Below are positions 551 through 53,700 of a DNA stretch of 60,000 bases, one piece after another. Location of the stretch: the NCBI GenBank assembly GCA_949358305.1, contig OX442315.1:2792001-2852000 (forward strand). The letters run 5' to 3'. The notes under the pieces were generated by a model. That model saw nothing but the letters and a program-made list of their open reading frames with translations, did no database searches and was not told where the DNA came from. Position numbers and translations under genes: made by a program. Numbering within the stretch: position 1 is the stretch's first letter; each line of letters begins with the position of its first letter. The DNA is from Strigamia acuminata. Taxonomy: Eukaryota > Arthropoda > Chilopoda > Geophilomorpha > Linotaeniidae.

Positions 551-3500
551 ATGAAGTACATTACGGTTTGCCTCACTGCAGTTGTGTGTATTAGTTTAAT
601 TAATACGGTATTTGGACAAGAAAATAAGGAAGAGCCAGAAGTAACGGATAAAGTATACAGTACACACGCACAACTTTACACAAGTTTACAATTCCCTTTA
701 CGCAAATTTCTTCTTCCAGGTTTGGTTTGACATCGAAATTGGAGTGCAAGAGATTGGACAAATAGAAATCGGTTTATTCGGCAAAATCGTTCCAATAACG
801 GTCAAAAACTTCGCCGAACTGTCTAAGAAACACTTAACTAACGTAAACGTATGTACACAAGTGCGCTATTTGCAGTGTTGTGCGCGGTCCCGGTCTCGGA
901 CCGGCGATCCAGGACCGGGACCGCGTTCCTTTTAAAAGGTCGGTCCAGGACCGCAGACCGAGACCGCGCTCCTTTTAAAAGACCGGTCCAGGACCGCGGA
1001 CCGGGACCGCGCTCCTTTTAAAATTCCGTGGACCGCGGACCGCTTTTGCGGGACATCTCGCGGTCCGCGAGAAAACACGAGATTCTCTTTTTTTTTTTTT
1101 TTCTTGAGCATTTTTGATAATTTTGTGCCATTTTTTGTTGGTCTAAAGACCGTGTTTTTATCGATGAATATGTTTATTCTCTATTGATTTCGATGTTACC
1201 TTTTATTTAACGCTGTCCCGTATGTAATTCCATACTTTTATCCCATTCACATATGATTTATTCTATCACCAAGTGATTTGTTCTCAATTAATGCTAATTT
1301 CCGGCACCAGAGTGCCACCGTCACTGTTATCTGAATCCAAGATGGCGACACACACAGCCGTGTGTGTCTTAGCTGATTTTCTTCCAAGATTGGACCCTTT
1401 TGTAATGTATTATGCTTATATTAAACTTGTTTTATTGTTTTAAACATTGTCGTTCATTTAGTGCACATTTCAGTGCATTTGTTAGCGCTTATAAGCGGCA
1501 TTAGGCCGCGCGCATTTGCTGAAGTCGATACGCGTCGTATCGCGCCCGTTCGTACGCGTAGTACAACTCGCTTGTTTATTTTCACGCTTCCGATCAGCAA
1601 TTACGCTGATAATTGCGCACTCCTCTGCTACATTGGTAGCAGAGGATGGTTGTTTACTAATTTTTCGCCCAATTTTCGGCGCATTTTTCGCGAAAATCGC
1701 GATTTTGCACGGAAATTTATATTTTCAGGTTTTCGGCCGCCATTTTGACCGGATTTTCGTCTCGAGAACGCCGCCGACGTACTATCGACGTTCCGCAGAA
1801 GCCCGTGCTGCTTCCCATTCGATTCTACGCTTAATTTCGGTCGAAATTCCGCGGGTTCGCGAATTTCGTGTCGAATTTTCTTTTTATTTTCAGGTTTTCG
1901 ACGTTTTGCGATTCGACAACGTCGAAATAATTATTTTCACCGAGAAACGAGTCGATTCTCGCTGTGTCATACCCCGGCGTATGCACAGTATCGCCGATCT
2001 TGATTTATTTACGACGATTTTGCACTTTTCTTGCGAAGAGCCTCATTTTATGAGAAGAATTTGGATTTTCGAATCCAAATTGCGCTTTTTCTCCGGTTTT
2101 TTCGAGAAAAACCGCGCCGTGCCTTCATTTGCACGAGGACTGCAACCGCAGTTGATTCACCTATTTCTCCTATTTTCGCAATTACCTTTGTTAATTTTAA
2201 GAGGGGATTTTGGTGGGTTTATTAGACTCCTTGGCGCCCTACGCTCGATTCCGAGCACCGCGTCATTGTATTCTGTGGTGAGGCTGAGCCCTGCGCCACC
2301 TGACATTCCCGTGACCCCAGGTGGTCGTAAAGGACGTCAGGGGGACACTCACCACAGGTTATCAGGCAATTGTAGCATTGCCTCCCAATTCGTGGTTTTC
2401 CGCTTCGAAAGTGCTAGTGACGTGCTTCAGTGCAGTGCTCCGATCAAGTGTACCACATCAGTGCCATTCTCTGAGCCTTTGTGTTCTCCGCGTTGTGTTT
2501 TGTCTAGCGATTCACGATGCAAAAAGCAGCAGCTTCGAGTGCTCTAGTTCCGGTCCTCGGTGTCGGAAATTACGAGGACTGGCGGATGGCGATGCAGTTC
2601 CTGTTAAAATCCGAGGGGCTCTGGAGACACGTGACAGAAGACAAGGAGGCGGACCACATTGCAACCCTGACGCCCAAGGAACTCGACCGTTATATGATAA
2701 AGAAGGACAAAGCACTAGGGCACATTTACATTCACGTGAGCCCCAGCAAGCGCACAGTTCTTGAGACTTGCAACACGCCAAAGGAGGCGTGGGAGACGCT
2801 CGCCAAGATTTACGCGCCAAGTTCCAGGGCCCGTCAAGCGGCCATGCGCTGGGACTTCTTAAATCTGCAGCTTCAACCCAACGAGGACATGCCAGATTTT
2901 ATTGCCCGCGTGGACAATTACGTGCGCCAATTAAGGGATGTTAATGAAATCATCAGCCCAATTCATCACGCGTATCAATACTTAAAGTGTTTGCCGCCTG
3001 AATACGCGCAGGCTACCTTCGCGATCTATCATTGGCCAGACCCAAAGTTTACGCCGAAGGATGTTGCCGAGCAACTGATATCCGAACATATGCGTCTTAA
3101 ATCAACTGGGCTGCTCGGATCATCTGAATCGTCAGCTCATGCTTCTAAAGGACAATTTCGGCCGCGTAATAAATCTGGTCCACGTGATTTATCAACCGTG
3201 AAATGCTTTAATTGTGATCAATTTGGACATTATGCGAACAGATGTCCACGTCCACCTCGACAAAATCAGAATCAACCCACGGTCACGCTGCAACGTAATT
3301 CTCGCAGCAAAAGTCGCAGGCGTAACAAAAACGCTGCCGCGAAGGTCAATAATACCAGACCCCGTGAAAACTCTCTTCCACATCGAGAGGGGACATTCTT
3401 TGTCAATGCGCCGCAAGTTGTCCAACGTCCAGTAGCCCATTTCATGCAATCCAATGAATGGATACTGGATTGCGGCGCCACAGACCATGTGTCTCACGTG

Positions 3501-6500
3501 CGTGCGGGATTCACCGAATTCACCGATGTGATCCCATTTGACATTGAGTTAGGACAGGGCAAGTCCCAAGTAACGGGCAAAGGAACGGTTCGACTTCTCC
3601 TAGCGATTGACAAGACGCGATGCACCGTTAATTTGACCAATGTCTTATATGCGCCGAATTTCGAGGCAAACTTGATCTCCGTGTCCAAGATTGATAAAGC
3701 TCGGCATCATATCCACATTTTCAACAGTGAGATTCATGTTTACCAATCGGACATTCGCAGCCCTCTCATCCGTGCAAAGGAGAGAGGTGGTCTTTACTAT
3801 GTGGACGGTTTATGTTCGAATCCGACATTTGCGACGACGGTCTCTCCTACGACACAACCGACGATTCCCGCGTCGCCACCGCAAATGTACGTGACAACCG
3901 AAGAAGATTTCCCGAACATTCCGAAGCATAGACAGGGAAAAGGGTCGAAACAGCGAGAAATAACGGATTTCCGGATTGAGATGCCAGCCATTGAACATGT
4001 AAAGCAAATTTCTGTACAACAAGCTCCTCAAACCAATCCGATTCCTCCTCCCATTCCCACGCAAATCCATAATAACCTGACCACTCCTCCATCCTATGCG
4101 GGTGCCTTGCAGTCAATCCCAACGGCAAATCCAACCGCGATTCAGAACGCAAATTCCTTTCCTCCCCTCGGCAATCCGTCTCAATTGAAGAAGAAGGTCA
4201 TTGCCAATCCAGCTTCCGTCAAGGACGCTACCGGCTTATGGCACAGCCGACTCGGCCACCTTCACACCAAGGGAATGAAGTTGTTGGCCGCAAACGACCA
4301 AGTCTACGGAATGCAACCAGGGGAAGTCAACAGGGAATTGGCCTGCAACGATTGTCGGATCGCCAAATCGATTAGAGCTTCTCACAAGCCCGATCCGAAC
4401 CCCTCAACAACGAAGCCTTTGGACCTTCTCCACATGGATATTTGGGGGCCCGCCCCTATCCCATCGTTTGGAGGAGCGCGTTTCGTCCTTACTGTCATCG
4501 ACGACGCGACACGCTATTGCTGGATTATACCGCTAGCGCTGAAATCACAAGTTTTCGCAACCTTCAAGGACTTTGTTGCTCGAGTGGAAAGAATTCAAGA
4601 CTCTCGAGTAAAAGCGATTCGGACGGATCGAGGCGGAGAGTTCATGTCAAACGAATTTCTCCGATATCTTCAGGATAAAGGCATTCAAGGGCAACGGACG
4701 AACCCGTCATCGCCACAGATGAATGGCACGGCCGAGCGCATAAACAGGACAATGCTCGACAACGTCCGCGCGATCATTTCGGAAACCAAACTTCCGGATG
4801 CGCTCTGGGCCGAGCTCGCAGTTACGTTCGGATACATCAAGAACCGGTGCCCTCATTCTCGACTTAACAATCAGGTCCCGTACATCCTTTGGCGACAGAG
4901 AGCCCTATCGTTACGACACCTCCGCAAAGTCGGCTCAAAGTGCTGGGTGCACTACACCGCACCAGGCCGGAAGAAACTGGATCCGCGGGCCTGGGAGGGA
5001 TATTTAGTCGGCTACGCCACAGGGACCCGCGGATTCAGAATTTGGAACCCAACTGACAACAAAGTCTACGAGTCGATTCATGTCAAAGTCGATGAACGCC
5101 AATCCTATCGGAAATCGATTAAAATTTCGTCTCAACGACCTCAAGAATCGTTCACCGGCCCTGGACAGCAATCCGTCACATTCGATGATAATCTCCAATA
5201 CCATCAATGGCCGAGGGGATCCGACTCCGAGGCGTCGGAACACTCTGCGAACGATTCCGAACATGTATCAACGGCATCCGCTTCGATGCACACACCTCCT
5301 GCGTTTCTGCATATCAACATTCCACCTCCGACGACTCCGGAACGGGTCTTGCTGGATTTATGTGCGACATTACCTCCGGGTTCCGCATCCCTTCGACAAT
5401 CTCATCACATTTCATACGAAGAGGAACGCGACACCGACCACGATATCCGAGACATGGATGAGCTATCGGTTTATCCCGAGACGTCCGAACTCATTGACGC
5501 GTCAGCGGAACCATCGTCGCATCAATTACCTCCTTCGACACCTCGTCAATCTGCCCCACCATCGCCTCGCCCATCAGCACCACCCTCACCTCAACGTTCG
5601 ACAGCGCCTCCTCTCCCACGTGAAACGCCGATACCGACGCCGAGATTTATTACGACGCGTCGTCAGCAACGTGTTGATGATCAGGCTGCGCAAGGGTTCC
5701 AAATTTTCGACCCCGATCCCAATTCACCAGCGACTGCGCGCCACACTACTCATAAGTGGCGATTCGTCGGTGGAGATGGCGAGTGCCGTGAATGGGTACG
5801 CGAGGAACATCTGAGAAAGGATCAAAAACCCGGGAAGATCTTAATCGACGTCTATTATTTTCCAACTCCGAAGATTCGTCTAAGATCTTATCACGACATC
5901 GAGGAGTATTGTATGTTGAACAATATTGATTACGACCCCGGACTGTTTTTCTTCGGTAATCTCGAACACAAATTGCCAACACTTCCGGGCGTTCGTCACG
6001 CGGCTCATCTGTGCCGAACCGAACCGGCTTCATTCGCCGAAATACCGAAATTCACTGATGCTCCGAAATGGCGTGAAGCAATTGGAGAGGAGCTCGATAT
6101 GTTCAAAGAGCGAGAGATCTATGAAGAAGTTCCCCGACCACCCGACACCACTATTCTTGGCTGCAAGTGGATTTTTAAACTCAAAACTGATGCAGCCGGA
6201 ACCGTCACTCGATACCGAGCACGCTTAGTAGCGCAAGGTTTTTATCAAACCCTCGGAGTCGATTTTGATGAGGTGTTTAGCCCAGTCGTGAACTTCATAT
6301 TGATTCGTCTGTTTTTCTGTCTTCTCGTCGTATTACGTGGTTGGAAGGACGCCCACCTCGACGTGAAAGGTGCGTACCTATACGGGGAATTAAAGCACAA
6401 AGTCTACATGCGAATCCCCGCGGGTGCCACATGCTCCGATCCAAACAACGTGTGGCTGCTCCTCAAGTCACTTTACGGCCTCCACCAGTCGGGTAGACAA

Positions 6501-9500
6501 TGGTTCGAGAAACTCGACGAGACGTTACGGGCCCTCGGATTTCGAAGAATGCCGGCATGCAACTGCGTATACGTTGTCGCGCTCAACTCTAACCGTCGCT
6601 AACTCGTGGGTTGATTACTTAATTCGACTAACTCACTACCGCTTTGCTCAAGCGGTTTACCCAAAGAAATGATTACACAGATATAAAAGGTAAAATATAA
6701 TATAGATTTATTCTGTGGGACAATGTACAGATATATCTTATATATATATATATATAAAAGGTAGGTAAAAGGTAAATCGGAATGGGTGAAGGGAAATGGA
6801 AAGGTAAAGGTATGATGAAAGCTGGCTGGAATCGGCGAGGTCGTCTGTTGTCTCGGTCGTGTCCAAGATGGCGTCCTCGTTGTAGCAACGTGATGTCGTC
6901 TTGGGCCGGCGTGGCAATATGGCGTCCTCGGCTCGTCTCTGGCTGGTCCTTCGGGCTCACGCTGGTCGGGCGCGAGTGAATGCTTAGTTAAAAGGCTTAC
7001 TTCGGGCTGTTGTCTAGGTTTTTGTGTGGTGTCCGGCGATCACACAGCGGCGGACTCTTCTGGCTCCCGGCGATCACACAGCGGCGGGAACGCTCGTCGT
7101 GGTTTAACTGCAGTTTAGGCTTGTGCGACCGTTTGTCTGCACAACTCGCTAAACTGGAGTGGTTTTTACTATTTCTAGCTGGTGTGCTAAAATAGTGTGG
7201 TAATCTTATCTCGCAGGTTACTCTGCGGAGTTTGACACTGACCAAACGTACTCACGGTAAATTGTCCTTTGTCCTTGGTCAATCCCAGTATATTTTACTT
7301 GGGCCTGATCTTGTAGGACGACGGGTTTACGTGTGTTTCTCGTTTGATGGTTGTGTTGGTTCTGCCCGCTCAGTGCAAGGCACATTCCTTTGCACAAAGC
7401 GGGGTTGACAGGTGACCGGAATCACCCAATGGTGGGGTGGACGAGCCATCCCCACTCCCTCAGGGCAGACGCCTGTCCATTGACTAGATGTCAATGCACT
7501 GAGGGAAGGGAGACGCGCTTGCGGCTCCCCTTACACCCGAAACGAGGTCACGAGAGAAACTCTTCGTTGACCCCGGTCCAGTCGGGTCACAACACTTCCC
7601 CCTCCGAGCTCAGACCGTGGGGCTGAGCGATCACTTCTTTCCTGGGGGACCCGACACTGAGTCCGTCACCTGGGCGTAACTCACTCCAGGGACAGGCGGT
7701 TGAGTGCCGGGTGGCGCGGGTAGATCGCCTACTAACGCCGAGGACCGATCTCGGGGGTCCTCATGCTCCGTAATGAAGCATAATGCATGGCCGTCAACTG
7801 GCTCATGCGGGGCACGCGTCCTCTCGTGTAACCAAACGCTCGGGATGTAGGCGGAGAAGCCGGTGTTCGTATGCCGGATGGCATTGGCTTCCGCTGGCGT
7901 CACTGGCACACGGTGGGCTCTCAGCAACCTCTGGTGGAAGATGAGGTCTCTAGTCTTCCGGATCTGGTTGTGAAGCCAGATGAAGACTGATTTGCCTTTG
8001 TCCCGCTGCGCGAGGATAAACCTCCTGGTCGCCGTCGTCATCGAGAGATGGGGAAACTCTTCGATGATTCGCCCGTAATAGTCTGGCGGAGGCGGTGCCG
8101 GCTTCGGCTTCTGGGTGGCCGCGGGAATAGCGGCTTGCGTCGTTGTCGCCGCTCGGGCCGGTGAGGTCCCGGGCGGTGTCGGCTTCGTTTGCTCGACGGA
8201 CCTGACGGGTGGCGTTCGGCACAGCAAGCGCTTTGGTTTACCCGCCACTTCGAACAGGGCGGGTCCTTGCGGGGATACCTCCGCAGGCATCGGTGGCGGA
8301 ATCGGAACTCCGCTCGTCGGCGAGATCACCATTTCTACATCCTCTGCCGATTCTTCCGTCTGGATGGTCAAGGCGCGCAGTTGTTGGGTAGGCGCCGCTG
8401 TCCAGGTGGCGGAGGTATAACGAAACGCCGTGCTTCGCAACTTGTACCCCTCAAATTCGGGGTTTACCACATCCCTGGTTAGCTCGTACCGAGTCAACAC
8501 AGGGTCGGGCAGAATGGAGCTCCACTCTGCGAGGAGTGCACGGGGAACCTGTACACCCTCTCTGTCCACGACAGACCATGCGGCCATCGCCTGACGCCCT
8601 TCTCCGAAGAGTGCTGGGGTTAGCAGCTGCATCATGACCTTGGTCAATGATAGCCGTAGGCTGCGACGATTCACTGGATTCGATCGCTCCGAATCCGCAG
8701 TGAAGGCACACGAGAGCTTACTCATCATCGCCGTTGCCCATTCGATGAAATATCGCTGGGCCTGATCCACACCTCGCAAGGCGGGCGCGGAGACTCTTGG
8801 GTCTTCCATCACGAAGCGAAACGCTGAGAGCTCGGAGATAGTCGGATTGGCGGCTTCTCTCGCGAGTCGCGCTTCTTCGTCTCGCCTCTCGAAAAACAGG
8901 GCCGAGGAACCGGATCGGGGTTGGCTCGGCCTGTAAATGCCGGTCAAATTGGCTCGACATTCCTGCGCAATGCTCTGTCCAACGGGGAGAGGGACTGAGC
9001 GGTCGGTGGGTAAATCCGGCGGATCGCTCGAATTCAACAACGACGGCGGCGGCAGGTTCGGAGGCGGCTGCGTCTTGGTCGGCAGCGTCGGCGTCGGCAG
9101 CGGTGGTGTTGGCTGCGTCGGCGGTGGTGGCGTCTCCGTCGTCTGCACTCCAGTCATTGCGACTTGGAGCGCCGGGAGATGTTGTCCGGAGCCTGAAGGC
9201 TGCACGATGGCGGTTGGCATGCCATCGGGTCGTGGTCGCGAATTAATGTAGTCTGCGAGCCACCTTGCCACCTCGTGTGGGGTCACCTTCCCGTCGGTGA
9301 CAACACCCATCTTCCTGGCGTGTTTCATCGCGGGATCGAAACGTGTCAGTTTCGTCCGCTTCATCTGAGTCAGAATCTCGCGAAGGTCCCGCGTATCTGC
9401 CGCTGGGACGTTTCGCTCACCTGACTGGCTACCACCTCGTCGACCCGCTCTCTTGGAGGCGTAGGCGGGTTCGGGGATGGGACGGCCCCGAGCTTCGCAC

Positions 9501-18500: not shown

Positions 18501-21500
18501 TTAAAAAGTCGTCCCAATTGACGCCTTTCAATCCTTGGTACCACTCACGTGCCGAGCCTGTCATTAGCTCGACAATACCGTGGGTGAGCATGTCTCCTAC
18601 GGTGGCTTTAGTGGCAGTCTTAATTCGAATTACTTCGTCAAGGAAGCGATCTCCCGCTTTCCATGACCCGTCGAAACGGTTCTGAATATAAAATTGCCAC
18701 CTAATATTCCCGGTAACACTCATGGTGTCACGTCGGGAGACAGCGTATTTTTTCTTTACGCGGTCACCAGTGCTACGATTACGATCGTTTCGTTTGCTCA
18801 GATCGATTCCCTCGGCTTTTAACGAGCCAAGTAGTGCTCTTCCAAGCTCTCCCATCGTATACTGCCGACCCGTCGAATCGGTAAACGCGCTTTGTCGGGG
18901 AAGGTCCTGAAACTCCTCCCGTCGGTGGTCGCTATTTTCCGATCGACGTCGTTTCTCTCTATCGCGCGGAGAGTTGGATCTCTTCCGGCGATTACTTGAT
19001 TTTTTCTTTCGTCTGTCGTCGTTGGATGAGGGGTCGGAGCTGGGGTCGGGAGACGGTGAGCGGCGTGGCGGGTTGCGCCGTGAAGAGTTTGACTCTTTCC
19101 GGCCCCTACGACGGTCGTCACGTTCCCTTTCTCTGCGTTCATCGCGTTCTCTTTCCCTTCGTCTTTCTCCGGAACCTCTCTCCGAATCGTGATGACTGGG
19201 TGCATTTGACTCCAGTCCATCTGACGACGAATCACTATTTCCGTAGTGAAAATATTTCGGTCTTTCATCGCGTTTGCCTTCTTCTCGCGAAGAGGTGCGA
19301 TCATGCGATTGTCTCCTTGACGACTCGTCGTCTTTAAGGATGGGCACTGGTTGTTGCCACTCAGTCCCTTGTGGATTATCATGCTGTTGGCTTGTGAGAG
19401 CTTGCTCTTCATTTCGCCTAGCATTATTAGCGTTGATTAATCGCGTTATCGCATTATTTGTGGCTGAATCGAGAGCTTGCATGCGGGGCCGAGTTTGTTG
19501 TTCTCTGGCCGACGCATCTCTCTTGCGCGGAGTAGCTGGTGTTGCCCTCTCCGGCTGGGGTTTGGGTTTGGCCTTCGGCGTGCGCTTTGGGTCTCCCTCT
19601 AGGCTCTCGTCGGACAGCTCGGATGAACTGATCTCTGGTTTGCGAACGGATTTCGGGTCATCTCGTCGCAATCTGGCCATAAATGCTCGCTCTGCTTCTT
19701 GTTGCGAGTGGAAAGCATATCGATGTGCTCTCAGGGCTCGGTCAACTATTTCTACCTCCTCGGGAGTAGTCGGATTGGGCTGGGTTCTGCCGTACTCGAG
19801 AGCTTGCGCTTCTCTTTCCGCCAGCTTCCTCCGTCTCTCGCGAATGGCTTGACGAGCCTCGTTCTCTGCATCCGCTTCAAATTGAGCGGAATCAACCAAT
19901 TGTTGAGCGTGTGCACCTTCAACAATGGTGATTTGTGGGGATACACTGTGCGCTTTTAAAGCTGCACGTACGATCTGTAACGTTTCGTACACGGTAATTT
20001 TCCCCGTCGGAAGGGTGTATCTCACTCCTTCCGCCTGTGCCAATTGCATCGCATCAATCAAGGTGCCCGAGACGCTGTAAGGCTGGCTCGAAACACGCTT
20101 GACAGAGGATGAGTTGGACTTGTGTCCTTCGGACCTGACCGAAGCTGGGCGGCTTTGCGTAATTGGCGTGTTTAGTGCCGAATTAGCGGTCGTATTTGAG
20201 GCCGTCTTTTGTATCGGAGACGCTGCTTTCGGACTGCCCACCTCGGTGTCGTGCGTTAGACGAGGCGATTGGTTACGGGATAAAACCTCGTTTCCGCTCG
20301 TCTCGCCGTCACGGTTAGAACGCGGCAGTTTGGAGTGAGATTGCTCTTCACCCCGCTCTGTCTCGTCCAATCGCTGCCTCGTCTCGGTGCGAGACGGGTG
20401 CGATGCCTCGGATGCGCTTCTACGATCGGGTTTAGGCTTACGCCGTTTTTGCCTCGCTTCGTGCGCTGAGGCTTTGGGTAAGGGACCTCCAGATCGCAAG
20501 TGATAGTCGGCGCCTTTACGACTGCCGGCTCTCTTGTTTGCGTCGGAGTCGGAATCTGTTACTCGGGTATTATCTGCCATTTCTTGCTTTGGGTATGATG
20601 TAATCACAGGTTAGAATCAGTTATTCGACTTGATCCCGGACAGGCCCCCACGTGTCGCGCTCAACTCTAACCGTCGCTAACTCGTGGGTTGATTACTTAA
20701 TTCGACTAACTCACTACCGCTTTGCTCAAGCGGTTTACCCAAAGAAATGATTACACAGATATAAAAGGTAAAATATAATATAGATTTATTCTGTGGGACA
20801 ATGTACAGATATATCTTATATATATATATATATAAAAGGTAGGTAAAAGGTAAATCGGAATGGGTGAAGGGAAATGGAAAGGTAAAGGTATGATGAAAGC
20901 TGGCTGGAATCGGCGAGGTCGTCTGTTGTCTCGGTCGTGTCCAAGATGGCGTCCTCGTTGTAGCAACGTGATGTCGTCTTGGGCCGGCGTGGCAATATGG
21001 CGTCCTCGGCTCGTCTCTGGCTGGTCCTTCGGGCTCACGCTGGTCGGGCGCGAGTGAATGCTTAGTTAAAAGGCTTACTTCGGGCTGTTGTCTAGGTTTT
21101 TGTGTGGTGTCCGGCGATCACACAGCGGCGGACTCTTCTGGCTCCCGGCGATCACACAGCGGCGGGAACGCTCGTCGTGGTTTAACTGCAGTTTAGGCTT
21201 GTGCGACCGTTTGTCTGCACAACTCGCTAAACTGGAGTGGTTTTTACTATTTCTAGCTGGTGTGCTAAAATAGTGTGGTAATCTTATCTCGCAGGTTACT
21301 CTGCGGAGTTTGACACTGACCAAACGTACTCACGGTAAATTGTCCTTTGTCCTTGGTCAATCCCAGTATATTTTACTTGGGCCTGATCTTGTAGGACGAC
21401 GGGTTTACGTGTGTTTCTCGTTTGATGGTTGTGTTGGTTCTGCCCGCTCAGTGCAAGGCACATTCCTTTGCACAAAGCGGGGTTGACAGGTGACCGGAAT

Positions 21501-24500
21501 CACCCAATGGTGGGGTGGACGAGCCATCCCCACTCCCTCAGGGCAGACGCCTGTCCATTGACTAGATGTCAATGCACTGAGGGAAGGGAGACGCGCTTGC
21601 GGCTCCCCTTACACCCGAAACGAGGTCACGAGAGAAACTCTTCGTTGACCCCGGTCCAGTCGGGTCACAACAACGTTTACGGAAACACAGCTGTTATGCT
21701 GGTCTACGTGGACGATATTGTTATATTTTACGCATCCGACAATGTTTTCACTCAACTGATTCGACTCATCAGTTCGAAATTCGACATCGTGAACCTTGGC
21801 CCGATCACGAGACTTCTAGGCGTCGAATTCATCCGCGACGCAGGACGCACATTTATCACCCAGCGTGCTTACATCGCCAAGATTATAAAGAAGTTCGGGA
21901 CATCGACCAATAACCTCGTCAAGGTGCCAGTGACACCGGGAACAACGCTCGTCAGAGGGTCCACCGAAAACCTCGAAGATTTCCCCTATCGATCGGTAAT
22001 CGGTTCACTGTTGTTCTTGGCATCGAGAACTCGTCCCGATATCCTATACTCCGTGATCGCCCTAGCACAATACAACACGTGCTACAACCGAACCCACATC
22101 CGCGCTCTTCTCCAGGTTCTCCAGTACGTGGCAAATACTGCAGACCTTTGCATCGAGTTATCTGGCTGCACATCGAGCCAGTTATCGGCTTTCACCGACG
22201 CATCGTGGGCGAGCGACCCGGAAACCTCCTTGAGTTTCGGAGGATACATCGTGTACATCGGCAATGTCCCTATCGGCTGGTCCTGTCGAAAACAGTCGAC
22301 CGTTGCATGCTCTACTATGGAAGCGGAATTTATCGCCCTGGTAGAGTGTGTAAAGGAGCTTTTCTGGTTGGACTCCGTGTACACCGATTTCCCGATTCTC
22401 AATCGATTGGCTCGACCTGTTGTTTACTCCGATGCCCTGGCCGCTATCCAATTCACGTCTAACGACATTGAGAACGCGAAGACTCGACACATTCGCGTGA
22501 AGTATCATTGGCTCAGGGAGTGGTATACGACAGGAGTCTTCGATCTTCGAAAAGTTGCATCCGAAGTGAATATCGCAGACATTTTTACGAAATGGCTCTC
22601 ATCCGAACGTTTGCGGTCACTCATTTCGAAGATCTTCCGAGCATAACTTTATCGTGACATTCCTGATTTAGTTTCACCCGATTTCGAGGATCATCGAGTT
22701 TCTGTGGGAATTCCGAGCTTAGTTAAGTGATAACCACGACAGTACCCGGCTCGATGATTCGAATTTATTATTTTTCTTTTTTTCGCCACTGATCAACTGT
22801 AATTCCAGTATGCGTTTGTCTTGTCCCCTGATAAATATTTTCATCGAAGAGGGGATTTGTTGGTCTAAAGACCGTGTTTTTATCGATGAATATGTTTATT
22901 CTCTATTGATTTCGATGTTACCTTTTATTTAACGCTGTCCCGTATGTAATTCCATACTTTTATCCCATTCACATATGATTTATTCTATCACCAAGTGATT
23001 TGTTCTCAATTAATGCTAATTTCCGGCACCAGAGTGCCACCGTCACTGTTATCTGAATCCAAGATGGCGACACACACAGCCGTGTGTGTCTTAGCTGATT
23101 TTCTTCCAAGATTGGACCCTTTTGTAATGTATTATGCTTATATTAAACTTGTTTTATTGTTTTAAACATTGTCGTTCATTTAGTGCACATTTCAGTGCAT
23201 TTGTTAGCGCTTATAAGCGGCATTAGGCCGCGCGCATTTGCTGAAGTCGATACGCGTCGTATCGCGCCCGTTCGTACGCGTAGTACAACTCGCTTGTTTA
23301 TTTTCACGCTTCCGATCAGCAATTACGCTGATAATTGCGCACTCCTCTGCTACATTTTTCTAGTCTTTTTGAGGATTTTGTGCCGTTTTTCGAGTCTGTT
23401 TTTGCATTGTGTTGCGTTTTTCGAGTATTTTGTGACGTTTTTCGAGTATTTTGTGCCGTTTTTCGACTTTCGAGTCTGTGTTAGCATTTTGTTGCGTTTT
23501 TCGGGTATTTTGTTGCGTTTTTCGGGTATTTTGTGCCGTTTTTCGAGTATTTTGTGCCGTTTTTCGAGTCTTTTTGAGGATTTTGTGCCATTTTTCGAGT
23601 CTTTTTGAGCATTTTGTGCCGTAGATTCTCGTATTTTGCGGTATAATCTCGGGATCCACGAGAAAACACGCAATCTCGTGTTTTCTCGTGGACCGTGAGA
23701 TGTACCGCAAAAACGCGGTCCCGGTCCTGGACCGGGACCGCGTTCCCGGTCCGCGGTCCGCGGTGCAACGTGGACCGGGACCGCGGTCCTTTTCAGCTGC
23801 CGGAACAGGACCGCGGACCGCGACCGCAGTACCAGGACCGCGGACCGCGCACAACACTGGCTATTTGCAAAAAGTTTATTTTCCCCCGCGCGCAATTGGA
23901 TACTGTGGTGTATTTGCACCACAAGGAATTATGCTGGTTTGAGCACAGTTAGGGAATACATTGTATTGGCAACAATACAATATACAGGGTGTTCTAAAAG
24001 TCTGTACCCCTCCAAATATTTCCTGAGCAATTGCATCTAGGCCAAATTTGATGAAGCAATCGTATAGTAAGTTGGGTGAGAGCAATCCAATGACATCATC
24101 AAATTTGACCTTGAAGGTCATTTTCAAGGTCATTTACTTGCTAACTTCTAAATCAATCAGGTTAGAGCAAAATTTCCAATTACAAAGTTGTAGAGCACCA
24201 TCAAATTAGTACTATCCAACTTATCTTAGTCATCTTAAGTTAAATGTTTTCTTTTTAAAAAGGAGACAAATCAGCTGAAATAAAGCCAGCCATTGTGACA
24301 AAACTTCAATTTCTATTAGAAAAATACTGAATTACTTAAATAAATGTATTCAAATGTGCATTATTATGCAAGTGAACAAGAAAAACCACTGCCTTTTTTT
24401 AATGCCTCAATAATTATTTTATCACAAGAATAAAAAATTTCACTTTGCGGATTTTTTTGTCTAATTTGCCTACTTTTTAAAAAGAAAACATTTAACTTAG

Positions 24501-38870: not shown

Positions 38871-39215
38871 GGGGTGCCGTTCCAACGGCGAATCTGGCCA
38901 TTCGTACGAATGGCAAATTTCTGTTTTATTCCGTCCAAAAGCAGTCCCAATGGCAAATTTCTCCCAATTCGTCATTGGGAACGTATTTGGACCTTTCTAA
39001 TGGCAAATTGGTAAACATTAAACCAATGGCAAAATGGAAGAAATTAGCCACAGGGGCGCACATCTAGCGCGACATTATTTACTTCGACAGCGACAAGCCG
39101 TCCCAAAAAAATGGTTTTGCATAAAAAAACCAGTAAGGTTAGGTTCAGGGGGGTCAAGGTGGGGGGGCTGCGCTCCCCCCCTTGGGAGTTGGAAGGAGAA
39201 GAAATACCCAAAATA

Positions 39216-39772
39216 TGTTGGACTTTAGAACCACTTTTGAGTTATTTAAATCATTTTTCGATGTGAAATGGCTTTGAAACGTTTATTTTATCATTTATCG
39301 GTAATTGTTTCCATTTTCCTGGGTTATTCAGTGTTTATTTAGTGTTTTCATGCTTGTTTGTCAGGAGAATGCATGATACCGGGTTAAATGTACTCAATAC
39401 ATTAGGTTTCATGCATCCTCTATCTTGTTCTTATGCTTTTCATTATTATTGTTTATAATATCGGCCACCAGATGTCTCTGGCACATTACAAATGGCCGCT
39501 CACACGGGTAGTGTGTTTCCTTGTGTTTGTCCAGTGATTCTGGACCCATTATGTAAGTTTTCTCTTAATAAATGTTATATTTTTGGTTAACTATTGTATT
39601 TAGTTCGGCACTACACGTTTCTATAAGTGTAGTGCACGCGAATTTGATCGTAAGTCCGCTCAAACTCGCGTACGCGCATCACGCGCATTTGTCCGCACTT
39701 AGAAGTGCGTTTGACTCAGTTTTACGCTTCCTATCGCCTATTTCGGCGATATTTTTGCGCCACACAGCTACA
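39216..39772 (+). repeat. Copia-2 left LTR
   Basis: Starts TGTTGGACTTTAG and ends CAGCTACA, 557 bp, matching 45170-45726. A shortened primer binding site (TGGTAGCAGAGG) begins three bases after it, at 39775. Confidence 0.93.
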
Positions 39773-40508
39773 AGTGGTAGCAGAGGCCTGGAAAGCCACC
39801 AGTGCCTCGTTTTTCCATTAATTTTCCGTGAATTTCGCGATTTTTCGCGATTTTTGCGGAAATTTTTGTTTTTTTCAGATTTTCGACGATTTCCGGCAGT
39901 CAACAACGTCTTTATGACGTTCACAACCCCGGAGTGCGGTCGTAATCGTCGATTTTTGAATTTTTTCAACCTTTTTTCGTGTTTTTCGAGTTAAAAACAC
40001 TGTTTTTTTGTGTTTTTCGAGTTAAAAACACTGCTTTTTGTGCATTTATTGTGCAAGATAGCGACAATTGACCTAGGAAAAGTCTTGTTCCTTTTTTTTT
40101 TCCCTCTAATTTTTCGTGAATTTCGCGATTTTTCGCGATTTTTGCGGAAATTTCATTTATTTTCAGATTTTTTCGCCGATTTTCATCATTTGTCACGTTC
40201 CGACAACGTCTGAGCGACGTTTTCATCCAGAAACGGGCATAACCCGCTGTCTGCACCCCGGAGTGCGACAGTATCGGCGATTTTCGAGAAGTTTTTCCCG
40301 GTTTTCGAAATCGGTCGGCGATCTTTTGAAGAATTCCGCATTTTTTATGCGCGGTGTGCACAGGGACGTCTGTGCATACAGATTCACCAACTTCTCCTTC
40401 TTTTTATTTCAGATTTCGAATTTATTTGTTAATTTTAAGTTTTTGGAGTGGGTCCCGATTAGTATCGGCACAGCCCTTCGGACATTCCGTCCAAGCTGTG
40501 CTTGTATT

Positions 40509-40619
40509 CTTAGACAAGGCTGAGCCCTGCGCCACCTAACATTCCCGCGGCCCCAGGTGGTCATAAAGGACGTTAGGGGGACACTTGTCTAAGGTTCTTA
40601 GCCAATTTTAGCATTGGCT
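40509..40619 (+). promoter_or_regulatory. Structured 5' leader RNA of copia-2
   Basis: The counterpart of 2273-2383. The outer stem is CTTAGACAAG (40509-40518) with CTTGTCTAAG (40584-40593), and the enclosed core is again 65 nt. The inner pair is TAAC with GTTA instead of TGAC with GTCA. The following hairpin, AGCCAAT with ATTGGCT (40600-40619), has a G-C pair changed to C-G. It precedes the gag start by about 140 nt. Confidence 0.75.
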
Positions 40620-40755
40620 CCCCGTCGAGGTTTTTCCGCTTCTAACAACGTTTAGTGAAGTGCTTCGAGTGAAAAGTGCTCCGATTACGTCTTTAGTGCC
40701 TCGAGTGTTTATGCGTGCTCATTATCGCCATTATCTCCGATTTTCCTCCGGAAAA

Positions 40756-43203
40756 ATGCAGACAGCAAGAGCCAACTTGAATTGGAATCGGTACACGAAG
40801 GAAACATCGGCTTTTGCTATGGACAATCGTGGATGCAATCAATCCCGACCTCCTCGTCCGATTTCGCAGGTTCGCTGTTTTAATTGCGGCTTTTTCGGCC
40901 ACTACGCGAATAAGTGCCCCCGCCCTCGCAAACAGGGCAAGGAACCGCAACCGGTCGCGTCTCAACAAGGCCGACCCCGCAGTAAGAGCAAACGACGGCA
41001 GAATAACAGTTCGCAGCAATCCGGTGGTCAAAACCGTGATGTTTCTCGTCCCCGAAGGGACGCCGCTTACCTGTTGTCGGCTCCACCGGTGATCGAAGCT
41101 CCGGTTGTACATTTTCTCCAGTCCCACGAATGGATTGTCGATTGTGGGGCCACCGACCACGTTTCGCACGTCAAAGCGTGGTTTACGAACTTTGTTTCCG
41201 TTGTCCCGTTCAACATCGAGTTAGGCCAGGGCAGTTCGAGGGTCACAGGCAAAGGTGACGTTCCGGTCAAGTCGCTCATCGATGGCTGCGAATGCACCGT
41301 ATTGCTCCGCGACGTCTTATTCGCACCTGACTTCGGCGCAAATCTTATCTCGGTTTCTCGGATTGATAAATGCGGACATCACATCCACATTCACAACTCG
41401 GAATTGCATACGTATGAAACGGACATCAAACTAAGTGTTCTTCGGGCGAAACAGAAGTCTGGACTTTATTTCGTGGATGGGCTCATCTCGCCATTCGCCG
41501 CTCCGACTAATGTTTCGAGTTCGTCTGTTTCATCATCACTTCCGACTTCGACACCGACAACTCTAGTGACGAAGGAAGAGGACTTTCCCGCATTGCCCAA
41601 GTCTTCCAACAAGACTAAGAAGAAGTCGGCTGACAATATGACCGATTTCCGCTTTCCCGTCTCCTCCAACACCTTGCTTGTCCCTTCACTTTTCCCTACC
41701 AGTCCTGCTCCTATTCCCGGATCCCAACCTCAACAAATCCGGATGTATTCCAATGCCCTCACATCTCCTCCTCCCGTTGCCAAGTCAAACGCAGCATTAC
41801 CTCCCAAACCAGTTAATCCTTCGGTTGCCAACGTCGCAGACGCCACGGGATTGTGGCACGGCAGGCTGGGTCACCTGCATACGAAGGCCATGCGGACTTT
41901 AGCGGCTAACTCCCAGGTTTATGGGCTTGATCCAGCTGCTGTTCGCCAGGAACTTTCCTGCAACACGTGCCGTGTTGCCAAGTCCACGCGTGCTCCACAT
42001 AAGCCAATTTCCGCGCCTTCAACCACGAAACCGCTTGAATTGCTTCACATGGACGTCTGGGGCCCGTCGAGACTGCCTTCCATCGGCGGTGCTAATTTTG
42101 CCTTCACCATTATCGATGACGCCACCAGGTACGCCTGGCTTTTCCCGATCGCCCGTAAATCTGATGTTTTTGCTACGTTTAAAGACTTTGTTTCCCGCGT
42201 TGAACGTATTGCTGATTGCCGAATTAAAACAATTCGCACCGACCGTGGAGGAGAATTCATTTCGAGGGATTTTGACCGTTTTCTTGCCGACAAGGGTATT
42301 GTTGCTCAACGGACCAATCCCGCATCGCCACAGATGAACGGTGTCGCCGAACGCCTGAACGGTGTCGCCGAACGCCTGAACCGGACAATGGGCGACTATC
42401 TCCGCTCCATCAACTCCGAAACCGGATTTTCGCACACGCTTTGGGCTGAACTTGCCGTGACGTTCACATATATCAAAAACCGCAGTCCGCATTCGAAGCT
42501 CAACGACGAAATCCCATACATTTTGTGGCGCCAGCGTGCTCTTTCCGTCAGACATTTTCGTAAGATTGGTTCCAAGTGCTGGGTACACTTCACCGCACCT
42601 GGACGCAACAAACTGGATCCTCGAGCGTGGGAAGGATTTCTCGTTGGCTACGCTTCGGGAACTCGAGGGTATCGAGTGTGGAATCCGGCTACGAACACCG
42701 TCACCGAATCTGTTCACGTCCAAATCGATGAACGGCAGAACTTTAAGCGCTCGCCCTTTTATGTTCTAGATCCGGATGACAATGCTCCACCCATGGAGGA
42801 GCCTGCTCGTGGCCACACCCCGTCACGTGTCACTTTTCGTGATAACTTTCCAACTCAGCCTTGGCCTCGTCGACGTCACGATTCGGATAACGACTCTTCT
42901 GCTGACAGCAGTGACGAGGATGGTATTGCCAGTCGTGCTCCCTCCGTCGCTTCGAGTGCTCTGTCTTTCGCTTCATTCGCACCATCTCTTCCTGCAGCTG
43001 ATGGTCTCATCGCCGCTGCTGACGGCTTAGCTGCTACGACTGATGGCTCTGTTACCGACGCTGATGGCTCTGTTACCGTCGCTGATGGCTCCGATAATGT
43101 TACGACCATTGCAGGACATGGACAATTTACACCGACCGTACGTTCCACCTCGCTTGCCTCATCTACGGCGTTCGATGTCCTACCCATCTCTCCCGGGTCT
43201 TGA
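40756..43203 (+). CDS. Copia-2 truncated gag, protease and integrase
   Basis: Starts at an ATG placed like the copia-1 start (MQTARANLNW). Only about 40 residues precede the CCHC knuckle CFNCGFFGHYANKC, against about 230 in copia-1, so the gag capsid domain is deleted. Protease has [10 protein letters not shown]. The pre-integrase region has LWHGRLGHLH. The integrase core has [15 protein letters not shown] and the catalytic Glu region, which carries a 21 bp tandem duplication (42337-42378) so that NGVAERL occurs twice. The end is low-complexity (ADGS repeats) and leaves the frame. The Gag defect alone should make this copy non-autonomous. Confidence 0.88.
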   Translation: MQTARANLNWNRYTKETSAFAMDNRGCNQSRPPRPISQVRCFNCGFFGHYANKCPRPRKQGKEPQPVASQQGRPRSKSKRRQNNSSQQSGGQNRDVSRPRRDAAYLLSAPPVIEAPVVHFLQSHEWIVDCGATDHVSHVKAWFTNFVSVVPFNIELGQGSSRVTGKGDVPVKSLIDGCECTVLLRDVLFAPDFGANLISVSRIDKCGHHIHIHNSELHTYETDIKLSVLRAKQKSGLYFVDGLISPFAAPTNVSSSSVSSSLPTSTPTTLVTKEEDFPALPKSSNKTKKKSADNMTDFRFPVSSNTLLVPSLFPTSPAPIPGSQPQQIRMYSNALTSPPPVAKSNAALPPKPVNPSVANVADATGLWHGRLGHLHTKAMRTLAANSQVYGLDPAAVRQELSCNTCRVAKSTRAPHKPISAPSTTKPLELLHMDVWGPSRLPSIGGANFAFTIIDDATRYAWLFPIARKSDVFATFKDFVSRVERIADCRIKTIRTDRGGEFISRDFDRFLADKGIVAQRTNPASPQMNGVAERLNGVAERLNRTMGDYLRSINSETGFSHTLWAELAVTFTYIKNRSPHSKLNDEIPYILWRQRALSVRHFRKIGSKCWVHFTAPGRNKLDPRAWEGFLVGYASGTRGYRVWNPATNTVTESVHVQIDERQNFKRSPFYVLDPDDNAPPMEEPARGHTPSRVTFRDNFPTQPWPRRRHDSDNDSSADSSDEDGIASRAPSVASSALSFASFAPSLPAADGLIAAADGLAATTDGSVTDADGSVTVADGSDNVTTIAGHGQFTPTVRSTSLASSTAFDVLPISPGS

Positions 43204-45121: not shown

Positions 45122-45169
45122 CTTTTTTTCGATTGTTTAGCACCGACATTTTACATCGAAGGAGGGAAT

Positions 45170-45726
45170 TGTTGGACTTTAGAACCACTTTTGAGTTATT
45201 TAAATCATTTTTCGATGTGAAATGGCTTTGAAACGTTTTTTTTATCATTTATCGGTAATTGTTTCCATTTTCCTGGGTTATTCAGTGTTTATTTAGTGTT
45301 TTCATGCTTGTTTGTCAGGAGAATGCATGATACCGGGTTAAATGTACTCAATACATTAGGTTTCATGCATCCTCTATCTTGTTCTTATGCTTTTCATTAT
45401 TATTGTTTATAATATCGGCCACCAGATGTCTCTGGCACATTACAAATGGCCGCTCACACGGGTAGTGTGTTTCCTTGTGTTTGTCCAGTGATTCTGGACC
45501 CATTATGTAAGTTTTCTCTTAATAAATGTTATATTTTTGGTTAACTATTGTATTTAGTTCGGCACTACACGTTTCTATAAGTGTAGTGCACGCGAATTTG
45601 ATCGTAAGTCCGCTCAAACTCGCGTACGCGCATCACGCGCATTTGTCCGCACTTAGAAGTGCGTTTGACTCAGTTTTACGCTTCCTATCGCCTATTTCGG
45701 CGATATTTTTGCGCCACACAGCTACA
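45170..45726 (+). repeat. Copia-2 right LTR
   Basis: 557 bp, one substitution from the left LTR as far as I can see, followed by AAATA. Confidence 0.93.
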
Positions 45727-46207
45727 AAATACAAGTTTCAAAGTCGCTGTAGATTCATGTCGCAACACATCCACAGATTCGCCATTGGAAACGCAAATAA
45801 CGTTTCCAATGGCGAATCGTTTCCAATGGCGAATTTCAATGCACCCAGATTCGCCATTGGAAACGCAAATAACGTTTCCAATGGCGAATTTAAATATACC
45901 AAGATTCGCCATTAGAAACGCAAATTACGTTTCCAATGGCGAATTTTCCTAGATTCGCCATTGGAAACGTCAAAATAGCTTTCCAATGGCAAATTGTGGA
46001 ATTTCGCCCTTAGACGATTCGCCATTAGAACGGGTACCCATTATTTATGTCATTATTAGACAAAATCCATTGTTTATACGTGTTCAATTGTTTCTAGATT
46101 GTAAAATCATTCGTTTAGACTTTGGAGAATTGTTAAATGTCCTCCATTTTTAGTTTTCGAAAGTTTCCAAAAGTTGCCGTTGGTGGCGCTTTTTATGACG
46201 TCATCGA

Positions 46208-50820: not shown

Positions 50821-51485
50821 TAGTTCGAAGTTAGTCTTTTTTATCTAATTTTTCACTTCAAAGTAGTTTTGAGAATTCAAAATTACACTGTAGCTAATAA
50901 TTACCATTTTTTTTTAAAGTGAAATCATTGTTCAGTTTGAAATGCCATTGTCTGGAAAATTATACCACTCACATGCGTTCCTTGCTTTGTACATTGTTCC
51001 ATGACTACTGAAATGGCCTTGGTTGAGGTACTTAAATTGCTTTCCCCAACAATGACTGCTCTAGTCAGAATGGTGGCTAAAACATAAGCGTACAAAAATA
51101 TTCAGGTCTTACTTGCTCACAAGGAGAGCATCCGAGTGAAATAGTTTCCCAGATATAAAAATTGCATTTAAAACCCTGTTATGGTTTTAGTTTCAAATGA
51201 AAATTTGAATTAGTAACGGGGTTTCAAAACCATCAGGTCTCTCTGGCTCATCCTGTACTATAAACTTATCATACCACGCAAGTCATATTTGTATGAAGAA
51301 GTATATTATCCATGCACGAATTCAAGCAATTGGTGACATTGTCTTCGGACCAGCACGGATTGTGGTTTGTATTGATGTTCTGAAACTGAGTAAAATATTG
51401 CATTTAATTTCAGCAATTACCTGTGCATAAATTTGTGGATAAATGCTTTGCAAATATCATGAATTTTGGATTTGTCAATTGAAAG

Positions 51486-51630
51486 CACTCTCACTTCTCT
51501 GTAAAGCACACTCACTTCTCTGTAAATCACACTCACTTTTCTGTAAATCACACTCACTTCTCTGTAAATCACACTCGCTTTTCTATAAAGCACACTCATT
51601 TCTCTGTAAAGCACACTCACTTCTCTGTAC
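51486..51630. repeat. 21 bp tandem repeat in intron 4 of channel gene 3
   Basis: About seven copies of CACACTCACTTCTCTGTAAA plus one base. The open frame across it is a by-product of the 21 bp period. Confidence 0.8.
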
Positions 51631-52136
51631 GACTTAGCTGCTTTCTAAAACTCTGCACATGAAAACATTTTGCTAATGTCAATGTGTATAAGATTTACCT
51701 CAGTAATTCTGAAAAAAAGGAAATTCAACAATTGTCGACCAAGTTTTATATTTTGCAGATTGTATTTATACACCACTTTGGATGAAAGAAATATCTGAAA
51801 CAAAAAAACATTTGACAAACCGCATCAATCAAAATCTATTTCTTCAAATCACAAAATAACCTGAGCCGATGCTGATGCGTTCATCTTCGGAAAAACTAAG
51901 TACGACTGCCAATAATCAGTTCCAGTAAAACGATAAACATTATCTAAACGGCAAAAACAAATCTAAAATTCCCATTTGCCAACATTAATTTTCAAATTCA
52001 ATCCTACCGTTAACGAATTTGTAGCAACGACCCTCAACCATGTCGATGGGAACTCCCAGTGCCCTGCCTTCAATACATTTGTCGCTAATTGCTTCGGAGC
52101 ACTGAAATATATTAAAATATTATCTACAGTGTAAGC

Positions 52137-52727: not shown

Positions 52728-53150
52728 TATTCCTATTAGTAAAATAAATTTACAAATATAAATAAGTAAAATTTACATCAAAATTGAAAATTTAGCATAG
52801 CGACGGAGAAGAAGGGAAATGTCTATTGATCCTTTTTGACTTTAACACGTTTATAATAACAACACGTCATTATCTAAAGCACACTCCTTAATATTTGGGC
52901 TCTCATTTAACTAAATCCAATTATTTTTTGTTGAAAAATAATTACCGGGGTGTATATTTAGCTGGAAAATATTTTAGTCTTTACAAAACTTTTTTTGTAT
53001 TCAGAAATGATATTTTTTCATCATTACATTTCATCACGTTGTGGTTTATTTAACTGCACTCGTCATTCTTGTAAAAAATAATAACAGTAATAGTAATAAA
53101 CTCACCAGAATATCTCATCAATAAAAATATGATGACGACTATCACTACCA
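52728..53150. other. Upstream region of channel gene 3, nothing recognised
   Basis: AT-rich sequence without a visible gene or repeat. Confidence 0.4.
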
Positions 53151-53189
53151 AACTGATAGTGAGAATTTACCGTTAGAAAATAATGTAGA

Positions 53190-53398
53190 TAGTGAAAATG
53201 AGATAGTGAAAATGAGATAGTGAAAATGAGATAGTGAAAATGAAATAGTGAAAATGAAATAATGAAAATGTGATAGTGAAAATGAGATAGTGAAAATGTG
53301 ATAGTGAAAATGAGATAGTGAAAATGAGATAGTGAAAATGAGATAGTGAAAATGAGATAGTGAAAATGAGATTGTGTAAATGAGATAGTGAAAATGAG
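53190..53398. repeat. 15 bp minisatellite
   Basis: About 14 copies of GATAGTGAAAATGAG with few changes. A 15-base period leaves the minus strand open, which explains a spurious repetitive ORF. Confidence 0.9.
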
Positions 53399-53700
53399 AA
53401 TTTACCTTGAGATTAGACCTCGCAACACAACAATCGTTCTCTCGACCAATCCCATGACATTTTACATCTGATGCTTGGTTCGTAAAGGCCCCACCGGGGG
53501 GCGCTAGCATGAGAAAAATTTCTGGAAATTATGCATGGCGCCAGGAATTTCTTCCCGGTAAGAACCAATCAGACATCAAAAGCGGTTTGTTACGCGCCTC
53601 GGGATTGGTCGGTAGAACGATTGTTGTTTTGTTAGGCCTAATCTCATTCATATTTATTTATAGCCCAAGCTAGTGGTAAATTCTCGTATCAAATACACCT
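53395..53700. repeat. Inverted-repeat element next to the minisatellite
   Basis: GAGATTAGACCTCGCAACAC and ACAATCGTTCTCTCGACC on the left are mirrored by GGTCGGTAGAACGATTGTTG and TTAGGCCTAATCTC on the right, around a short unique centre. No clear TSD. Confidence 0.55.

Follow-up and report, generated by a model that had tools for sequence, protein, structure and literature searches.

An 85-nt block shared by two copia elements of the centipede Strigamia acuminata is, on comparative sequence evidence, the middle one of three hairpins that make up a cis-acting RNA domain in the 5' leader of related copia elements. Comparison of its divergent copies shows a selected RNA fold that keeps a fixed place before gag. 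As to function, we regard a role as packaging or dimerisation signal as an even call. The first-pass annotation had proposed a functional, covarying RNA in the copia leaders, and the retention of the outer stem together with the covariation lends this proposal strong support. All coordinates are those of the window, i.e. the whole stretch of 60,000 nucleotides that was analysed, and the hairpins, 5' LTRs, primer-binding site and start codons described lie on its forward (+) strand.

In the window, the block occupies positions 2273..2357 in copia-1 and 40509..40593 in copia-2, exactly as first annotated. Its outer stem (P1) is a perfect 10-bp helix in both elements, and the five differences between the two stems are, as had been claimed, without exception double and compensatory. 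The core differs at five positions: the change from TGAC/GTCA to TAAC/GTTA is one compensated pair, and the others are a change of U.G to C.A at facing positions and a change of A-U to G-U. The LTRs of the two elements are nearly unrelated, again in agreement with the annotation: blastn with words of 11 returns no match between them, and words of 7 return a single weak stretch (53 bp, 70%, E 0.01) at the U5 end. Patterns from the 5' and the 3' half of the block, allowing up to 3 mismatches, each match these two window sites alone, with 0 matches in 100 shuffles. A covariance model built here, whose training set included both window blocks, matches these two blocks and nothing else in the window (E 6e-28 and 2e-26).

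Judged by the identity of their LTRs, both elements look like recent insertions. The 5' LTR of copia-1 (1134..1632) has its 3' copy near 22856-23356, and the two are identical at 501 of 501 positions, counting a base or two past the LTR end; the 5' LTR of copia-2 (39212..39773) and its 3' copy near 45167-45727 show 99.6% identity over 562 bp. The sequence adjoining the LTR end of copia-1 provides a primer-binding site (PBS, 1634..1649), which we take to be of the initiator tRNA-Met type. The gag start codon of copia-1 (2517..2519) lies 160 nt after P1 and opens a reading frame (2517-6602) with a Retrotran_gag_2 domain and a CCHC zinc knuckle. In copia-2, a capsid-less gag-pol frame starts at 40756..40758, 163 nt after P1, and an additional in-frame ATG is found 118 nt after P1. 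Two repeats of ~1 kb (about 6571-7594 and 20650-21672, 99.9% identical) flank some 13 kb starting inside copia-1 pol, and probably belong to a nested, very recent LTR element. Tandem repeats are found at 53146-53441 (units of ~14 nt), 51461-51649 (21 nt) and 23357-23619 (irregular, 10-21 nt).

The block is abundant in the genome, with hundreds of copies outside the window, and the covariation strengthens as they are included. A 30-base pattern from its 5' half, with up to 3 mismatches, has 311 matches in the 237.5 Mb genome and none when reversed. The corresponding 3'-half pattern has 230 matches, but 23 for its reversed control, and copies are therefore counted with the 5'-half pattern alone. 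Among the matches listed, the divergent copies collected amount to at least 34 distinct rows (hairpin plus the downstream hairpin P5), corresponding to 28 distinct hairpins; as the searches are dominated by copy-rich types, rarer types may be missed. Several of the collected types are multi-copy and differ at many stem positions. In addition, 88 loci of three kilobases, all fetched via the block, represent 74 distinct genomic copies. Pattern searches outside the genome gave one chance match among viral contigs (L110), none in a second search, and three chance matches in a collection of genome contigs (L111-L113); all four loci lack the remainder of the motif and were excluded. These collections consist of bacterial, archaeal and viral DNA, so that absence there means little. 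A protein search with the copia-1 Gag returned three matches, two of them from Strigamia maritima (47 and 59% identity) and one from an orchid.

Comparison of the copies shows a central fold that is nested and irregular. In copia-1, the helices are P1 (2273-2282/2348-2357), P1b (2285-2286 and 2289-2291 with 2342-2344 and 2346-2347), P2 (2299-2304/2336-2341), P3 (2307-2309/2332-2334) and P4 (2311-2316/2323-2328); a 7-nt bulge (2292-2298) separates P1b from P2, and an apical loop (2317-2322) closes P4. The hairpin of copia-2 has the same architecture, at the copia-1 coordinates plus 38236. In alignment numbering (2268 = 1, an insert column ignored), P1 corresponds to 6-15/81-90, P1b to 18-19 and 22-24 with 75-77 and 79-80, P2 to 32-37/69-74, P3 to 40-42/65-67, and P4 to 44 and 46-49 with 56-59 and 61. 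The outer stem persists in the other copies, with 339 of 340 cells paired over the 34 rows; the remaining helices are kept in 168/170 (P1b), 203/204 (P2), 101/102 (P3) and 190/204 cells (P4). Thirteen of the 14 failures in P4 fall at position 45 facing 60 and one at 46-59. At 45/60, 21 rows have U.G, 11 have C.A and 2 have A.G (16, 10 and 2 of the 28 hairpins); since U.G and C.A wobbles are isosteric, this non-canonical pair is a covarying one as well. Among all covarying pairs, 45/60 (window 2312 and 2327), alternating between U.G, C.A and A.G, ranks second in strength. The 7-nt bulge and the apical loop, C-Y-A-G-G, hardly vary in the alignment; as read from the alignment, the loop could pair with itself except at the central A (A.A), i.e. 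the palindrome is imperfect. A second register for P3 was rejected, with 69.6% of its cells paired.

Paired cells and double changes were counted on an alignment (A4) of 23 of the 28 distinct hairpins, leaving out the near-copies L072, L074, L084, L116 and L121; L099, in which one arm of P1 is broken, was excluded from the covariation sets. Without the pairs 45/60 and 19/79, 99.4% of 644 cells are paired, and double changes occur in 14 of 28 pairs (65 cells). Shuffles of the same set reach 90.6%, 6.6 pairs and 16.4 cells, and slid controls at most 48.9%, 5 pairs and 10 cells. For a test against phylogeny we used our own R-scape-style script (not R-scape), which combines a G-test with average-product correction; the null comprises 200 alignments that place the substitutions reconstructed with a FastTree tree in random columns. 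By this script the covariation exceeds the tree-based null. The top ten of 6,105 column pairs are all structural, and structural pairs also take ranks 12, 14 and 15; the pairs at ranks 11 and 13 include column 20, next to the indel in P1b. Taken over all column pairs, the first two have E below 0.005, followed by 0.005, 0.04 and 0.11; all others lie above 0.4. Scaled to the 37 structural pairs, all 13 structural ones named fall below 0.04; the same data had served to choose the helices, which makes this scaling partly circular. In an earlier run, 38 longer sequences put the same helices in front, with weaker E values (best 0.03) and one non-structural neighbour pair at 0.28. On the tree, structural pairs show 39 co-change branch events versus 1-12 in slid controls.

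The central hairpin is flanked by two further ones, P0 and P5. Mean identity among seven leaders, in bins of 30 bases, is 0.84-0.91 over 2262-2381 versus 0.05-0.77 elsewhere. P5 (2364..2383 in copia-1) has 7 bp and a 6-nt loop and folds alone at z -2.6; alignment and folding place it at 40600..40619 in copia-2. It is kept by compensatory change: 190 of 196 cells are paired, double changes are repeated, and the six-base loop is conserved. P0 recurs upstream, at 2232..2265 in copia-1 (outer stem 2232-2237/2260-2265, inner stem 2243-2247/2252-2256) and at 40467..40502 in copia-2 (RNAfold). RNAfold predicts this two-step hairpin in 33 of 33 distinct 51-nt upstream segments, each folded on its own, despite quite different arms between types; the weakest is that of L120 (-4.7 kcal/mol).

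A pseudoknot that had been proposed for the core, in which CCACC/GGTGG interleaves with TGAC/GTCA, fared less well. Its CCACC/GGTGG helix is complementary in both window copies, but the other copies do not support it. As a conserved state, the helix (29-33/53-57) was rejected: it shows no double changes, and its middle pair is broken in 8 of the 28 hairpins, position 55 being A or C in 9 of 34 rows while 31 stays A. In two rows, position 57 changes to A together with a change of 48 to U inside the competing P4 hairpin. The RNAfold minimum-energy fold includes CCACC/GGTGG in copia-1 and L089, not in copia-2. Minimum energy and comparison thus disagree on the fold, and, being part of the copia-1 energy minimum, the helix may still be an alternative second state. 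A different pseudoknot, C-C-T-G with Y-A-G-G, can pair in 136 of 136 cells; both strands are nearly invariant, hence without covariation, and it competes with P1b. The pseudoknot of Ty1 lies partly in gag coding sequence; among the 34 rows here, no interleaved helices of the Ty1 type are backed by covariation.

Within the leader, the position of the domain follows the gag start rather than the PBS, as the spacing to gag is near-constant and that to the PBS is variable. A PBS was recognised in 81 of 88 loci, at 459-1069 nt from the block, with one locus at 341 nt. All 7 loci of further types and 56 of the 74 distinct copies match the capsid region. The gag start follows the end of P1 by 158-177 nt in 55 of these 56 copies and by 152-192 nt in 6 of these 7 loci, so that 61 of 63 lie within 152-192 nt. 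The exceptions are L075 (252 nt) and L128 (617 nt), the latter a copy with interrupted P1. L128 overlaps L099, i.e. it is the same genomic copy, and was taken in for the spacing count. In this copy (C6:13171560-13172660, gag start 617 nt downstream) the 3' arm of P1 is replaced by foreign-looking sequence, probably a later insertion.

Among 63 of the three-kilobase loci, 58 have the gag AUG as the first ATG downstream of the hairpin, as do 5 of the 7 loci of further types. All of the 13 leaders analysed are depleted in ATG (1-3 observed versus 6.0-16.1 expected from dinucleotide shuffles), and in no leader do more than 33 of 1,000 shuffles reach counts this low. No depletion is seen for GTA, TAG or TAA. 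Like ATG, TGA is scarce in most of the 13 (e.g. window 1634-2516), for which start-codon avoidance offers no explanation. At the other end of the leader, the LTR end beside the PBS repeats it in inverted orientation in copia-1 (window 1622-1645) and in 9 of 10 other copia-1-like leaders (L070, L071, L074, L076, L077, L078, L083, L086 and L087). The exception is L085, whose PBS is doubtful and whose leader may be misbounded. In copia-2 and L009, the inverted copy amounts to about 5 matching bases only. In leaders with the inverted copy, U5 could fold onto the PBS.

A number of the elements that carry the domain have no capsid. The first 300 residues of copia-2 (40756-41655) give no match to Retrotran_gag_2, whereas copia-1 matches, and the copia-2 start region runs on to the zinc knuckle. 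Altogether 18 of the 74 distinct block-bearing copies lack a capsid match, namely all 17 distinct copia-2-type copies fetched and L070. L070 (no match) and L076 (partial match) carry two other in-frame capsid deletions and keep domain and start. Three different in-frame deletions of the Gag capsid are hence seen in separate copia types (copia-2, L070, L076), which looks like a repeated origin of Gag-dependent parasites; we infer that the capsid-less copies depend on the Gag of another element. Type-specific 30-base patterns have 37 exact genome matches for the copia-2 type and 43 for the capsid-intact L009 type, and the 85-nt block is identical letter for letter in these two types. They are also similar over 40296-40439 (95-97% identity) and 41196-41495 (92-98%), and diverge over 40440-40499 (P0) and 40700-40779 (before and at the start codon), both at 35-65%, as well as in their LTRs (51-88%). 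Given these further near-identical stretches, the elements are mosaic and the block does not stand out as their sole island of identity, so that its sameness in the two types may stem from shared ancestry or recombination.

The annotation had offered ribozyme, IRES and packaging signal as functional options. Of these, a packaging-type signal in our judgement fits best, and ribozyme and IRES find no positive evidence. On genomic RNA the domain lies between PBS and gag start, where a packaging or dimerisation signal is looked for; and, among copies selected by the block, elements without capsid match keep it, as a packaging signal would be kept. Position, the conserved unpaired bulge and loop, and retention in capsid-less copies favour packaging, none of them being specific to it. 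Retention is not specific because the start codon and the downstream reading frame are kept as well, nor can it be turned into a rate, because all copies were found through the block and capsid-less copies without it are invisible. Among the copies collected, none bears the domain while having no ORF at all. If the domain acts in packaging, it would mark full-length element RNA for Gag, possibly also for dimerisation, with the 7-nt bulge and the C-Y-A-G-G loop as putative sites of contact with protein or RNA. Its retention in capsid-less families such as copia-2 would then let intact relatives supply the Gag that packages them. The fixed spacing before the start codon, set against the variable distance to the PBS, fits control of translation equally well, and on this ground translation control is the strongest rival: the domain would govern initiation at the gag AUG as an IRES, as the landing structure of a shunt or as a brake on scanning. 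That the gag AUG is mostly the first ATG after the hairpin speaks for it as well. The IRES version would be looked for in leaders hostile to scanning, with many upstream ATGs. Depletion of ATG in 13 of 13 leaders is instead what is expected if leaders are scanned, and suggests that an IRES is not required. Known IRES families are included in Rfam, and none is among the Rfam matches. Overall we consider translation control unlikely. Still less probable is a two-state switch that sorts the RNA between translation and packaging, with P2 and P4 forming one state and CCACC/GGTGG, which uses some of their nucleotides, forming the other; were it true, the packaging state would be the one exploited by parasites without a capsid, such as copia-2.

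A long irregular hairpin with nearly invariant nucleotides in its bulge and apical loop, retained in capsid-less copies, could also be an RNA export element of the constitutive-transport type, its internal loops recruiting an export factor for unspliced RNA. The domain contains nothing specific to export, and in simian retroviruses such elements lie near the 3' end, which counts against this possibility; we hold it to be improbable. A self-cleaving ribozyme, suggested by the compact conserved core closed by a covarying stem, is very improbable indeed. A cut between PBS and gag would destroy the template of reverse transcription, no covarying pseudoknot was found, and no Rfam ribozyme matches around the blocks even up to E 10. 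Over the 60 kb, Rfam gives 0 matches at or above the gathering cut-off; up to E 10 near the blocks it returns only mir-2076 (E 2.8) and chrB-b (E 1.3), both far below their cut-offs and outside the hairpin. A twister-like reading, prompted by some block letters that we take to resemble twister, was rejected since the helices differ and Rfam has no match. Finally, the block might have no selected RNA function and reflect shared ancestry or gene conversion of the leader between copia families. The copies are related, the copia-2 and L009 types share the block exactly and other stretches nearly, and single-sequence folding of three hairpins is only mildly more stable than that of shuffles (z -2.2, -1.5 and -1.0). 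Against this stand the co-change branch events, in which both sides of a stem change at once, and we judge this explanation to be extremely improbable.

To our knowledge, only yeast (Ty1) and, to a lesser degree, barley (BARE) offer well-studied packaging and leader signals of copia elements. In Ty1, a structured 5' domain with a long-range pseudoknot is tied to translation initiation, packaging, dimerisation and reverse transcription (PMC5454406, PMC4974528); this TIPIRT domain of a yeast member of the copia superfamily has its 5' pseudoknot (S1/S2) in the first 326 nt, together with kissing hairpins. The centipede domain is likewise a structured 5' domain of a copia-superfamily RNA, a likeness drawn from published descriptions. 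Unlike the long-range pseudoknot of Ty1, it is local and nested and lies mostly 460-1070 nt after the PBS, before gag. Barley BARE2 cannot make Gag, yet particles contain its RNA, whose signals for dimerisation and packaging are described as conserved (PMC3735527). As with BARE1 and BARE2, a family deficient in Gag is kept beside a Gag-bearing relative, BARE2 being known from particles and copia-2 from its sequence. BARE2 has lost the gag start codon, whereas copia-2 keeps the start and loses the capsid domain only; a covarying RNA fold is found here, and none is known to us for the BARE1/BARE2 signals. The centipede domain also resembles retroviral hairpins of the SL1 type, a likeness that implies no homology: it lies between PBS and gag, and its C-Y-A-G-G loop is partly self-complementary, though unlike in retroviral dimerisation hairpins the palindrome is imperfect at the central A.A. 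Retroviral psi and dimerisation hairpins such as SL1 are situated between PBS and gag. Among the matches listed in literature searches, with most subscription journals outside their scope, there was no account of this RNA. The Ty1 5' domain and the BARE signals are the closest systems known to us, and the function of the centipede domain is unproven.

In a group of animal copia elements, natural covariation thus resolves a compact RNA of ~85 nt, accompanied by flanking hairpins, down to its base pairs, and Rfam holds no family for it. The comparative fold corrects what energy minimisation alone would give. With capsid-intact and capsid-less families sharing the block in one genome, the requirements for carriage by the Gag of another element become testable with short RNAs.
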